Shown: piece after piece, positions 24,107 through 27,616 of the stretch
Numbering within the stretch: the stretch's first letter is position 1
Layout of the letters: each line of letters begins with the position of its first letter
From: Elusimicrobiota bacterium
GTDB taxonomy: Bacteria > Elusimicrobiota > UBA8919
Length of the DNA: 64,000 nucleotides
Direction: 5' to 3'
Assembly (NCBI GenBank): GCA_028718185.1
Contig: JAQUMH010000004.1
Location: forward strand, 74,334-138,333
Position numbers and translations under genes: made by a program
Notes under the pieces: model-generated
Databases searched by the model: none
What the model was told of the DNA's origin: nothing
Seen by the model: only the letters and a program-made list of their open reading frames with translations

Positions 24107-25231
24107 TTATCTATCATAGAATATACTGTTCAATTTTGCAAGTCGTTTCTTTTTTACTTCAAGAGGCACATCGTCTTCCATAGCATATGCTTTGGTGTTT
24201 TCTCTCGGTGAATATTTAAACGTGAATGCCGAAGCAAACTTCACTTTTTTAACAAGTTTAAGCGTATCATTGAAATCTTTTTCGGTTTCTGTCGGGAAAC
24301 CGACAATTATGTCGGTTGTAAAAGATACATCTTTAATTTTTTTCTGCATTTTTTCTATAATTGACATATATTTCTTAACTGTGTATTTTCTATTCATCAG
24401 CTTCAGTATCCTGTCGGAACCCGACTGTACGGGCAGGTGTATCTGGCGGACTACTTTCCCGCAATCATCAATTGCATCAATGATTTTGTTAGACATATCT
24501 TTAGGATGACTGGTCATAAATTTTATTTTTTTTATTTCCGGAATTTCTTCCACTTTTAAAAGCAAATCAGCAAAATCCATTTTATGGAATTTATAACTAT
24601 TTACATTTTGTCCCAATAGTGTTATTTCTTGTTTGCCCATATCAGTAAGCATTTTAATGTCTGATAGTATGTCATCAAGAGACCTTGATTTTTCAGGACC
24701 ACGCACAAACGGAACTATACAATATGAACAGAAATTAGAACAACCTAATGTAATTGTTACAAATTCTGAAAGATTCTCACATTTTCCTGTATTTGAAGAT
24801 TTAGAAGTTTCCAATAATTGCAATAATTTCACCGTATCATTTGCAGGAATAAATCCATCAAGATATGAAAATCTTTTTTTAAGGTCTTCTTTTAAACGAG
24901 AAGCAACACATCCTGCAATAAAAATCTTCAATTTTGGATTCTTTTTTTTTAATTTTCTTGTCTCTCCCAAGTAACTCAAAGCCCTGTCTTCAGCATGTTG
25001 TCTTACCGTACACGTATTTATAATTATAATATCCGCATTTTCCGGTTTTTCAGCTGGCAAATAGCCCCTTCCCAAAAGCAACTTTCCCATAGAATCCGAA
25101 TCCGCTATATTCATTTGACATCCAAAAGTTTTAACATAAAACTTTTGGATGTCACCCCCCCGCCTAGATTTGCTAACGCAAATCTGGGGGGGTATAAGTC
25201 TTTGCGGTATATCTTTATTTATCTTTTTCAT
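24107..25231 (-). CDS. miaB: tRNA A37 methylthiotransferase MiaB, lacking TRAM domain
   Basis: 374 residues. The N-terminal MTTase domain has KFYVKTFGCQMN, NTCTVRQHAEDR and IAGCVAS, giving the three auxiliary-cluster cysteines. The radical-SAM site is TLGCSNFCSYCIVPFVRG (C-x3-C-x2-C). It converts i6A37 to ms2i6A37, following MiaA. Typical MiaB is about 430-450 residues and ends in a TRAM RNA-binding domain; here the frame stops right after VKKKRLAKLNSIFYDR, so some 65-70 residues are missing, next to the palindromic element at 24 kb. The first 30 residues are encoded by two hairpin repeats (25116-25193). The ATG at 25231 has AAGG upstream and overlaps the GIY-YIG gene. Confidence 0.88.
   Translation of the reverse strand: MKKINKDIPQRLIPPQICVSKSRRGGDIQKFYVKTFGCQMNIADSDSMGKLLLGRGYLPAEKPENADIIIINTCTVRQHAEDRALSYLGETRKLKKKNPKLKIFIAGCVASRLKEDLKKRFSYLDGFIPANDTVKLLQLLETSKSSNTGKCENLSEFVTITLGCSNFCSYCIVPFVRGPEKSRSLDDILSDIKMLTDMGKQEITLLGQNVNSYKFHKMDFADLLLKVEEIPEIKKIKFMTSHPKDMSNKIIDAIDDCGKVVRQIHLPVQSGSDRILKLMNRKYTVKKYMSIIEKMQKKIKDVSFTTDIIVGFPTETEKDFNDTLKLVKKVKFASAFTFKYSPRENTKAYAMEDDVPLEVKKKRLAKLNSIFYDR
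25116..25193. repeat. Double-hairpin element inside the 5' end of miaB
   Basis: Two adjacent hairpins. First a perfect 18-bp inverted repeat with a 3-nt loop (arms 25116-25133 and 25137-25154, TGACATCCAAAAGTTTTA). Then a C-run/G-run hairpin: CCCCCCC (25155-25161), unpaired GCCT, AGATTTGC (25166-25173), loop TAAC, GCAAATCT, GGGGGGG (25186-25192). A second copy with different inner sequence but the same layout is at 51614-51671. Confidence 0.8.
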
Positions 25232-26153: not shown

Positions 26154-26210
26154 CTAAAAAAGTGAATAAATTGTTGTATTTTTCGTGATTTTCATCATTT
26201 TTAGGTTTTA
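26154..26210. repeat. Direct repeat flanking the DUF6788/nucleotidyltransferase module, left copy
   Basis: About 57 bp beginning CTAAAAAAGTGAATAAATTG and ending TCATTTTTAGGTTTTA. It is repeated in the same orientation at 27558-27616 with two substitutions and two small A/T-run length differences. The two copies bracket a 1.35-kb segment with the two small genes and their operators. Confidence 0.9.
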
Positions 26211-26258
26211 CAATTCCAGAAATATTCAATGGTTTTAACTTTTCGTCTCTCTCCAATA

Positions 26259-26283
26259 TTGAGGTGCCGATTTAGCACCTCAA
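26259..26283. other. Perfect hairpin in the gap 26109-26411
   Basis: Nine-bp perfect arms TTGAGGTGC and GCACCTCAA with a 7-nt loop. There is no U tract on either side, so it does not look like a rho-independent terminator. It lies between the left direct repeat and the end of the nucleotidyltransferase gene. Confidence 0.65.
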
Positions 26284-26363
26284 TAGTTCTTAGCATTTTG
26301 AACCGGTTACAATTTGTGACCAGTTCATTTTTTTTATCTGTAGTTTCGTAATTTTCATTTCTC

Positions 26364-26407
26364 TTTACACTACATTGTAGTTTATTTATAATGTTTTGTA
26401 GTGTAAA
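26364..26407 (+). promoter_or_regulatory. Operator-like dyad overlapping a plus-strand promoter
   Basis: Perfect inverted repeat TTTACACTACA (26364-26374) and TGTAGTGTAAA (26397-26407). Within it, TTTACA (26364-26369), a 17-nt spacer and TATAAT (26387-26392) form a plausible plus-strand promoter pointing into the 3' end of the nucleotidyltransferase gene, antisense to it. Activity is inferred. Confidence 0.5.
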
Positions 26408-26411
26408 TATT

Positions 26412-27095
26412 TTATTTTGATAATATATCTAAAATATCAAATTCTTTTTCTTCTTCTAATACATTTAATATTCTTTTTTGCCATTTGACAGGAAGAGATA
26501 TAAATATTTTTGTTACTTCGCTGGATTTGCCGTCTTTTATTAGGGACTTCAATATTTCGAAAGCAGCGGTTTTATCTTTTTCAGATTTTTCTTTTAACTG
26601 TCTTCTTTTAGCTATTATCAATTTATGCAAAGCAAAGTTTATAGGATGCGGCAGGGTGAGATGAAATTCTTCAAGTTTTACACGAATGGTGTTATCTGTT
26701 AATAAATCTAAAAACCTTAGAGTTTGTGCGTTCATTCCTAATTGCGGTAATGGGAAAGGTTTATTAATTCCCTTCCCTTTTTCCGGAACCAGAAGTTCAA
26801 TTATTAAATCCGGATGCTGTAGTTTTATGTAACCTTTAGTTGCACTAAAGGTTACAACAAATCCTAAATCCTCCATGAGTTTTGGTATATCAGTTTTTCC
26901 CTTTATTTTTGAAGGGCTGGGAATTAAGAAATCAATATCTCTGGTTTTAAGAGATATGTTATAATCAACGTTGCTAAAATATTCTTTATAAAATGGAATG
27001 CACCAGCTACCAACAATTATAATATTTTCCAACAATCCGTTATTGTGTAAACGTCTTAAAATTTCAACACATAAATCATATTGCTTCTTTTCCAC
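26412..27095 (-). CDS. Putative nucleotidyltransferase-fold protein of a two-gene regulated module
   Basis: 227 residues starting at GTG 27095, chosen because AGAGG lies 8 nt upstream; an earlier in-frame GTG at 27104 abuts the SD. IIIVGSWCIPFYKEYF followed by KTRDIDFLIPSP gives the G-S...D-x-D pattern of the polymerase-beta-type nucleotidyltransferase superfamily (as in MNT and AbiEii-like toxins). The rest is helical and ends in an acidic tail. The gene overlaps the upstream 105-residue partner by 20 bp, so the two are coupled. By analogy with other such pairs it could be the toxin or modifier of a toxin-antitoxin or phage-defence module; that is an inference. Confidence 0.65.
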   Translation of the reverse strand: MEKKQYDLCVEILRRLHNNGLLENIIIVGSWCIPFYKEYFSNVDYNISLKTRDIDFLIPSPSKIKGKTDIPKLMEDLGFVVTFSATKGYIKLQHPDLIIELLVPEKGKGINKPFPLPQLGMNAQTLRFLDLLTDNTIRVKLEEFHLTLPHPINFALHKLIIAKRRQLKEKSEKDKTAAFEILKSLIKDGKSSEVTKIFISLPVKWQKRILNVLEEEKEFDILDILSK

Positions 27096-27393
27096 GAATT
27101 GCACCTCTTAAATATTTTATCTGTTTCTTAACTTGAGATAATAGATTCCTATATTTAGCTCTAAATATTTTTGCTTTTTCATGCTTTTTAATTATTTTTT
27201 CAGATAGTTTTCCTTTATAAATATCTTTAACTTTGTCTTTTACTCTTAATGCAAGATAATAGTACACATGTCCATGTATCTTTTTAGGTCTTAAGCTTCC
27301 CTTTGGTAATTTTCTTAGGGCATTTTCATACTCTCTTTTCATACGGATAGAGTTTCCCAATTCTTCTTTTAATAAAGCTTTTATAAACGGCAT
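27076..27393 (-). CDS. Small basic DUF6788-like protein, partner of the nucleotidyltransferase
   Basis: 105 residues from ATG 27393 with AGGAG 9 nt upstream. Lys/Arg-rich. The core LPKGSLRPKKIHGHVYYYLA followed by RVKDKVKDIYKGKLSEK matches the G-S-L...K-x-I-x-G-H-x-Y-Y-Y...Y-x-G-K pattern that I associate with DUF6788, a small domain common in archaea and candidate phyla. The C-terminal half is helical and basic, suitable for nucleic-acid contact. It is first in a two-gene unit behind a promoter covered by palindromic operators, so it is a candidate autoregulator or antitoxin. No function is established. Confidence 0.65.
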   Translation of the reverse strand: MPFIKALLKEELGNSIRMKREYENALRKLPKGSLRPKKIHGHVYYYLALRVKDKVKDIYKGKLSEKIIKKHEKAKIFRAKYRNLLSQVKKQIKYLRGAIRGKEAI

Positions 27394-27427
27394 AATAATC
27401 AACTCCTATCTTTTCCTAAAACCAAAA

Positions 27428-27476
27428 TACCCAACATTGACAAATATATTATATAATGTTGGGTAACAAAAGTCAA
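27428..27476 (-). promoter_or_regulatory. Promoter with embedded operator 1 of the two-gene module
   Basis: Minus-strand promoter: TTGACT (27471-27476), 17-nt spacer, TATAAT (27448-27453); predicted start near 27441, 48 nt before the ATG. An inverted repeat with 11-bp arms TACCCAACATT (27428-27438) and AATGTTGGGTA (27455-27465) embraces the -10 box and the start point, the classic layout of a repressor site. Confidence 0.8.
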
Positions 27477-27485
27477 TAATTACTA

Positions 27486-27525
27486 TTACCCAACAATTAG
27501 CTAAATACATCTATTTGTTGGGTAA
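27486..27525. promoter_or_regulatory. Operator 2, upstream of the module promoter
   Basis: Perfect inverted repeat TTACCCAACAA (27486-27496) and TTGTTGGGTAA (27515-27525). It shares the ACCCAACA/TGTTGGGT half-sites with operator 1, so the same protein should bind both. It starts 10 bp upstream of the -35 box. Confidence 0.75.
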
Positions 27526-27557
27526 GAACTATTTATGAACTATAGAGTGCTGAATTG

Positions 27558-27616
27558 CTAAAAAAAAGTGAATAAATTGTTGTATTTATCTTGATTTTCA
27601 TCATTTTTAGGTTTTT
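27558..27616. repeat. Direct repeat flanking the module, right copy
   Basis: Same sequence and orientation as 26154-26210, differing by two substitutions and A/T-run length. It ends 5 bp before the rsgA stop codon. Confidence 0.9.

Follow-up and report, generated by a model that had tools for sequence, protein, structure and literature searches.

The two-gene unit described here is, with a probability of roughly 0.86, a toxin–antitoxin module of the MenAT/AbiE kind (type II/IV-like), in which the second gene (gene B) would encode a nucleotidyltransferase toxin and the first (gene A) an undescribed antitoxin and repressor, undescribed meaning that it was not found in the open-licence literature searched. 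The computed basis of this reading consists of gene linkage, operator conservation and position, fold, active site, fusions, partner exchange and orphan antitoxins, and from it we infer toxicity, neutralization, DNA binding by a beta-sheet, a tRNA target and a possible phosphorylation of T51 of gene B. The module is located in the window, which is the whole analyzed stretch of 64,000 nucleotides and part of contig C4 of a 3.03-Mb assembly (G000) that, judged by its relatives, belongs to the phylum Elusimicrobiota.

Both genes are encoded on the minus strand, with rsgA on one side and a nitroreductase gene on the other. Gene A (27076–27393, 105 aa), the predicted antitoxin and autorepressor, is an open reading frame with an ATG start and AGGAG upstream, and it belongs to a family of 25 members. 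Gene B (26412–27095, 227 aa), the predicted toxin, overlaps gene A by 20 nt and starts with GTG, while the same MEKKQ start is found in relatives. The two overlapping genes of 105 and 227 aa that the preliminary description had named were thus recovered. Elsewhere in the window, an 18-bp perfect inverted repeat whose loop measures 3 nt (25116–25154) lies within the 5' part of a MiaB-like gene and encodes DIQKFYVKTFGCQ on the minus strand.

The assignment of gene B is based on its Pfam match, a structural model and residue counts. It matches PF12281 (NTP_transf_8) over residues 13–186 (E 6e-19, 69.3 bits vs. a curated cut-off of 26.3), and the AlphaFold2 model, built from 20 relatives, reached a mean pLDDT of 91.6. 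A Foldseek search of the PDB with this model ranked MenT1, the toxin of the MenAT1 complex (8an5, E 1.5e-4), first; nucleotidyltransferases acting on aminoglycosides and lincosamides, including ANT(2'')-Ia and LnuA, came next. With a TM of about 0.4–0.5 and 10% identity, the predicted likeness to MenT1 is one of superfamily strength. Sequence searches of solved structures delivered nothing useful for either gene. The motif residues of gene B are G29-S30, T51-R52-D53-I54-D55, E100, K158, R164-R165 and K173-D174. Among these and their neighbors, G29-S30-W31, T51, D53, D55, P149, K158, R164, R165 and K170 are invariant in 20/20 relatives, while E100 (E/D), K173 and D174 are nearly invariant. The nucleotidyltransferase with a D-x-D motif proposed earlier is therefore borne out by the family match, the confident fold and the match to MenT1. 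In addition, T51-R52-D53-x-D55 is equivalent to T39-R40-D41-x-D43 of MenT1, where T39 is the residue phosphorylated upon antitoxin action (PMC11375011).

Gene B also carries all motifs of the AbiE set (hG[G/S], DhD, K..R and D), conserved in 19–20 of 20 relatives, as G29-S30, D53-x-D55, K158..R165 and K173-D174, with a spacing that differs from that of the AbiE motif set. The spacing of K158 and R165 equals that of K173 and R180 of AbiEii, both of which are required for toxicity (PMC3985639). No Pfam match to PF08843 (AbiEii) was found for gene B at E<1, and the comparison of its family profile with the AbiEii alignment was not significant. Consequently, we claim a like mechanism and not membership, and the link to AbiEii is drawn from fold, motifs and partner exchange. 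The presence of ANT(2'')-Ia and LnuA among the top structural matches would fit yet another view, namely that gene B is no toxin and instead a regulated enzyme that modifies small molecules or RNA and is encoded together with its own repressor. However, an addiction-type pair accounts better for the exchange of AbiEi partners, decayed copies of B beside intact A, the patchy horizontal spread and the loss of B alone, and we consider such an enzyme quite improbable. With respect to the spread, a tree of 74 gene B proteins interleaves the phyla, with 12 label changes vs. the least possible 3, as would be expected for a mobile, horizontally spread module. PF12281 was found in 363 plasmid records, and about a quarter of the sampled Omnitrophota genomes gave a detectable match.

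The pairing of A and B recurs in Elusimicrobiota, Omnitrophota, Nitrospirota and Caldisericota. When 199 Elusimicrobiota genomes were searched with gene A first, 16 credible loci were obtained (a count that leaves out three weak hits inside very long frames), of which 12–13 are intact pairs; among the remaining loci, L028 is cut by a contig end, B is broken by stop codons in L030, and L034 holds a remnant of B. The search with gene B first gave hits in 84/334 Omnitrophota and 35/346 Nitrospirota genomes. Among the loci read, about 58 distinct intact split-type B genes have upstream sequence, and all of them directly follow gene A. As for the four other strong hits, L110 and L132 lie at contig ends, L185 is a truncated gene and L141 encodes a 325-aa protein with an unrecognized N-terminus. 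Orthologues are thus repeatedly adjacent to each other across genomes, the linkage that had been proposed as a check.

In some relatives both halves are joined in a single chain. Such A-B fusions numbered 17 among the loci read in the B-first search; named examples are L046, L047, L054–L056 and L058, besides the canonical GSU2403-type proteins. Related single chains, named GSU2403 family nucleotidyltransferase fold proteins in RefSeq, are encoded on rhizobial and other plasmids, and the N-terminal domain of GSU2403-type proteins matches gene A (hhalign 95.3%, E 2e-8). Our analysis suggests that these single-chain proteins are fused toxin–antitoxins. The canonical GSU2403 chains nevertheless count against our preferred reading, as a separately diffusing antitoxin is not universal.

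Intact copies of gene A without B are common (among them L045, L069, L070, L226, L227 and L233), whereas the surveyed loci included no intact split-type B that had upstream sequence but lacked A. This asymmetry, the position of A as first gene with an operator and the resemblance of B to MenT together point to B as the toxin and A as the antitoxin. Reversed roles would correspond to HEPN–MNT (type VII) modules, where the nucleotidyltransferase is the antitoxin (PMC11586414): gene A would then be a toxin that B modifies and silences, and the basic and compact nature of A would agree with this. However, a toxic A predicts the opposite of the observed asymmetry, gene A is the first gene and carries the conserved operator, and the divergent branch of B follows AbiEi antitoxins. 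Furthermore, gene A gave no HEPN match in Pfam, and no histidine is conserved in 25 gene A relatives, so that the HEPN motif R-x4-6-H is absent. We thus regard a reversal of roles as very unlikely and rejected filing the unit under HEPN–MNT. Both share a two-gene layout with a nucleotidyltransferase, but the HEPN partner is lacking here and the roles appear reversed.

Gene A itself gave no significant Pfam match. It had been called DUF6788-like, of which a weak resemblance is what stands: PF20586 (DUF6788) is matched by 2 of the 25 family members (best E 0.014) and not by the window protein, and the assignment to DUF6788 was rejected. Pfam gave no match to AbiEi either, and no sign of a winged-helix antitoxin was found. 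In the model of the fusion L047 (pLDDT 90.9), the nucleotidyltransferase is preceded by two long helices with a three-stranded antiparallel sheet between them. By homology to this fusion, gene A is predicted to fold as helix, three-stranded beta-sheet and long helix. A fold search with the fused model recovered the nucleotidyltransferase half only and gave no clear match for the A part; no solved relatives of gene A were found, and a resemblance to Arm-DNA-binding domains was below threshold. The beta-domain of gene A is common to DUF6922 and GSU2403 proteins.

The promoter of the module consists of a -35 box TTGACT (27471–27476, minus strand) and a -10 box TATAAT (27448–27453, minus strand), which are separated by 17 bp. 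The proximal operator GTTACCCAACA-N20-TGTTGGGTA (27428–27467), a palindrome with one end mismatch, spans the -10 box together with most of the spacer, and the distal operator, TTACCCAACA-N20-TGTTGGGTAA, occupies 27486–27525. Both palindromes are of the TTACCCAACA-N20-TGTTGGGTA type. Palindrome scores were 13.0 for the proximal and 14.5 for the distal site vs. a 95% limit of 10 for shuffled sequence, so that the clean promoter under a palindrome and the second palindrome upstream, both noted earlier, hold. The degenerate operator pattern occurs once in the 64 kb vs. 0.00 expected. The half-site reads TTACC-NN-ACA; paired 20 bp apart over the promoter, it is predicted to form an autoregulatory operator.

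The same kind of site is present in homologous promoters. In the B-first survey, inverted half-sites (called at ≤3 mismatches out of 16) were found in 48/58 evaluable promoters, where shuffled sequences predict 0.50. In 38 promoters the half-sites stand exactly 20 bp apart, and 28/58 have two sites, as in the window. Most other promoters of this survey carry different palindromes in the same place, e.g., TTTTCCACCAC…GTGGTGGAAAA in Nitrospirota. At least four bacterial phyla share the operator sequence of the module. A pattern scan of 334 Omnitrophota genomes detected sites in 39, the reversed control in 1. Such sites occur in 34/84 genomes with B vs. 5/250 others, where P = 2e-18 overstates the evidence, since related genomes are not independent. 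In two of the five genomes without B, and at a second site in G622, the operator belongs to an intact gene A without B (L226, L227, L233). Counting against our preferred reading, some operator sites (L230–L232) lie away from any module. Altogether, L228, L229, L234 and L230–L232 are module-type operators without a recognizable gene A, some of them beside AbiE-type genes or an integrase, and these might be scars or members of a wider regulon.

The connection to AbiE-type genes is seen on both sides of the pair. First, divergent PF12281 proteins of about 270 aa from Omnitrophota (L176–L195) follow a gene of 223–240 codons in 20/20 cases, and this upstream partner is AbiEi_2, a type IV antitoxin, in 6/6 tested and also at L009. 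Second, at eight Nitrospirota loci (L059, L062, L063, L065, L066, L067, L071, L072) the beta-domain of gene A is joined to DUF6922 in one protein, with an AbiEii gene next in line, as judged from Pfam searches with three of these fused proteins and one of the toxins. The beta-domain of gene A matches the corresponding domain of the DUF6922 proteins with an hhalign probability of 96.6% (E 6e-10). Five of the eight promoters carry a pair of TTACC-NN-ACA half-sites with a 1-bp gap (P ≤ 0.003 by shuffling) and a sixth carries an abutting pair (P 0.013 by shuffling), while the abutting half-sites in the promoters of L063 and L067 were not significant by shuffling. The half-site of L072 is identical to that of the window. 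Several of these promoters contain compact TTACCNAACA-A-TGTNNGGTAA palindromes. Possibly, the DUF6922–AbiEii pairs represent a second unnamed toxin–antitoxin group. They share with the module the beta-domain of gene A and, in several loci, the half-site near the promoter; they differ in their C-terminal half (DUF6922), in their toxin (AbiEii) and in half-sites that abut with a 1-bp gap, whereas those of the module are 20 bp apart.

As to described systems, the unit shows what is generally looked for in a toxin–antitoxin locus, namely two conserved adjacent genes with a predicted autoregulatory operator. MenAT comprises the MenT nucleotidyltransferase toxins of M. tuberculosis and diverse MenA antitoxins. 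The module resembles it in the antitoxin gene beside a nucleotidyltransferase of the polymerase-beta fold, for which it provides the best structural match, and in the T-x-D-x-D motif with its phosphoacceptor threonine (T51, 20/20) as well as the lysine and arginine motifs. However, gene B belongs to PF12281 and is about 10% identical to MenT1, while the family of gene A is none of the described MenA antitoxins. MenT transfers nucleotides to the acceptor ends of tRNA, and the target of gene B is proposed by analogy to it. With AbiE, a type IV system of phage abortive infection, the module shares the bicistronic layout with the repressor gene first, inverted repeats over the promoter and motifs I–IV, and the divergent branch of gene B itself pairs with AbiEi_2 proteins. 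Autoregulation over inverted repeats is also described for Rv2827c, an AbiEi-homologous antitoxin of M. tuberculosis (PMC7319586). In AbiE, the antitoxin neutralizes without binding the toxin. Differences from AbiE are that gene A of the window does not encode a winged-helix AbiEi and that gene B lacks a PF08843 match. As for PF12281/GSU2403, gene B is a member and gene A corresponds to the N-terminal domain of the single chains, but in the window both halves are separate, overlapping genes with a conserved operator. Thus, of the two analogues named in the preliminary description, AbiE stands, with the divergent branch of B paired to AbiEi, and AbiE and MenAT are much closer than MNT/HEPN, which is a poor analogue.

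Neither gene was recognized by PADLOC or NCBIfam, and PHROGs gave nothing convincing. In the open-licence literature, we found no paper with PF12281, NTP_transf_8, DUF6788 or DUF6922 and no function for PF12281, be it in the split or in the single-chain form; the one mention of GSU2403 is in a Geobacter study of integration host factor. This agrees with the earlier statement that no pairing with the family of gene A is described, as this type of antitoxin occurs in no paper found there. The toxin–antitoxin mechanism may serve phage defense, with B released on infection as in abortive infection by AbiE, which works in this way (PMC3985639). Some relatives of the module (L032, L019) neighbor AbiEi/AbiEii genes or remnants of methyltransferase genes, and the fused forms are reminiscent of CapRel, in which toxin and antitoxin are likewise fused and which is triggered by phage (PMC9712102, PMC13423816). 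On the other hand, PADLOC gave no hit, none of 50,697 phage records searched matched the module, and no defense island surrounds the window copy; among viral contigs one distant locus (L090) was found. We therefore hold a role in defense for a real possibility, at somewhat less than even odds, and it would be compatible with the toxin–antitoxin reading preferred here.

The unit is flanked by direct repeats, a right copy just after the rsgA stop codon (27562–27615) and a left copy (26156–26209), which continues into the promoter and leader (TATAAT/AGAGGAG) of the nitroreductase gene. Near-identical copies in the same orientation had been reported and were confirmed (52/54 identical, 96%), while the reported length of 57 bp was revised to 54 bp by alignment. 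These are the only two copies in the assembly. In the relative G005, a single similar element stands directly after rsgA (77% identical), with another gene behind it and no module; if the insert is removed on paper, this arrangement is restored. Among about 27 relatives examined, a flanking repeat was found in L019 only, and its 65 bp are a remnant of a methyltransferase gene and no parallel to the window repeat. Nitrospirota copies of the module at L019 (2122–4972) and L022 (upstream of the module) lie among repeated fragments of DNA methyltransferase genes. Since relatives lack the repeat and its left copy merges into the nitroreductase promoter, the 54-bp repeat is probably a duplicated target sequence, namely this promoter, and no part of the module. 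The idea that it is a constant part was rejected, a change from the earlier interpretation. Alternatively, the repeats could be recombination (att) ends of a mobile cassette carrying the module, because they lie precisely at either end of the unit, agree at 96% of positions and have no further copy in the assembly, and the insert also contains scars of other elements. However, the relatives without flanking repeat, the left copy running on into the nitroreductase promoter, the single similar element in G005 and the absence of a recombinase make this unlikely. We conclude that the module arrived beside rsgA with a target duplication of about 54 bp.

Within the insert, downstream of gene B, lies TTTACACTACA-N22-TGTAGTGTAAA (26364–26408), a perfect palindrome that is unique in the genome and corresponds to the operator of another module subclass; with no matching module gene behind it, it is read as a scar. 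The TTTACACTACA type is the operator of L035 and L034, with a similar site in L168–L175, and belongs to one supported clade (L035 with L168–L175, support 98/97). A blastn match of the scar reached 83% over 48 nt (E 2.6e-6). On the plus strand, the same stretch also reads TTTACA-17-TATAAT, directed antisense into gene B. A tentative scar of an ORF6N-type gene (..W-S-Q-I-V-T..; 26288–26326, minus strand) carries the palindrome GGTYACAANTTGTRACC, which has three sites in the genome: one falls within the ORF6N-like gene L092, and another lies some 0.7 kb away from L091, a second gene of this kind. The insertion site may have hosted other modules earlier.

Taken together, the toxin–antitoxin reading as a MenAT/AbiE-like pair is strongly supported by adjacency, fusions, operator, orphan antitoxins and the MenT-like fold, in line with the small autoregulated unit with a nucleotidyltransferase that had been suspected. 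By analogy to MenT, from which its tRNA target is taken, gene B would be a toxin of the polymerase-beta fold, most likely attaching nucleotides to the 3' ends of tRNA and thereby halting translation. The helical parts of gene A would probably hold gene B, while its three-stranded beta-sheet would read the TTACC-NN-ACA half-sites; paired 20 bp apart over the promoter, these would allow gene A to repress the operon. If gene A is lost or titrated, gene B would be released and the promoter would open. An antitoxin-induced phosphorylation of T51, as in MenT1, might be part of neutralization. The module is patchily inherited and, on this view, reached its place beside rsgA together with a duplication of 54 bp from the target promoter.

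One might further speculate, with nearly even odds, that the beta-sheet of gene A is a portable and hitherto undescribed DNA-reading module of antitoxins with two half-site architectures, and that the widespread GSU2403 fusions are self-neutralized toxin–antitoxin proteins. If so, one half-site would serve both, its copies standing 20 bp apart where the toxin is NTP_transf_8 and abutting where it is AbiEii, and the GSU2403 fusions would perhaps be released by a phage signal as in CapRel. The operator rule is precise enough to find members of the module by DNA pattern alone, and both architectures would offer a natural test of how a single DNA-reading domain serves different toxins. PF12281 proteins are common, and they would now be tied to toxin–antitoxin biology, with the missing antitoxin family supplied.
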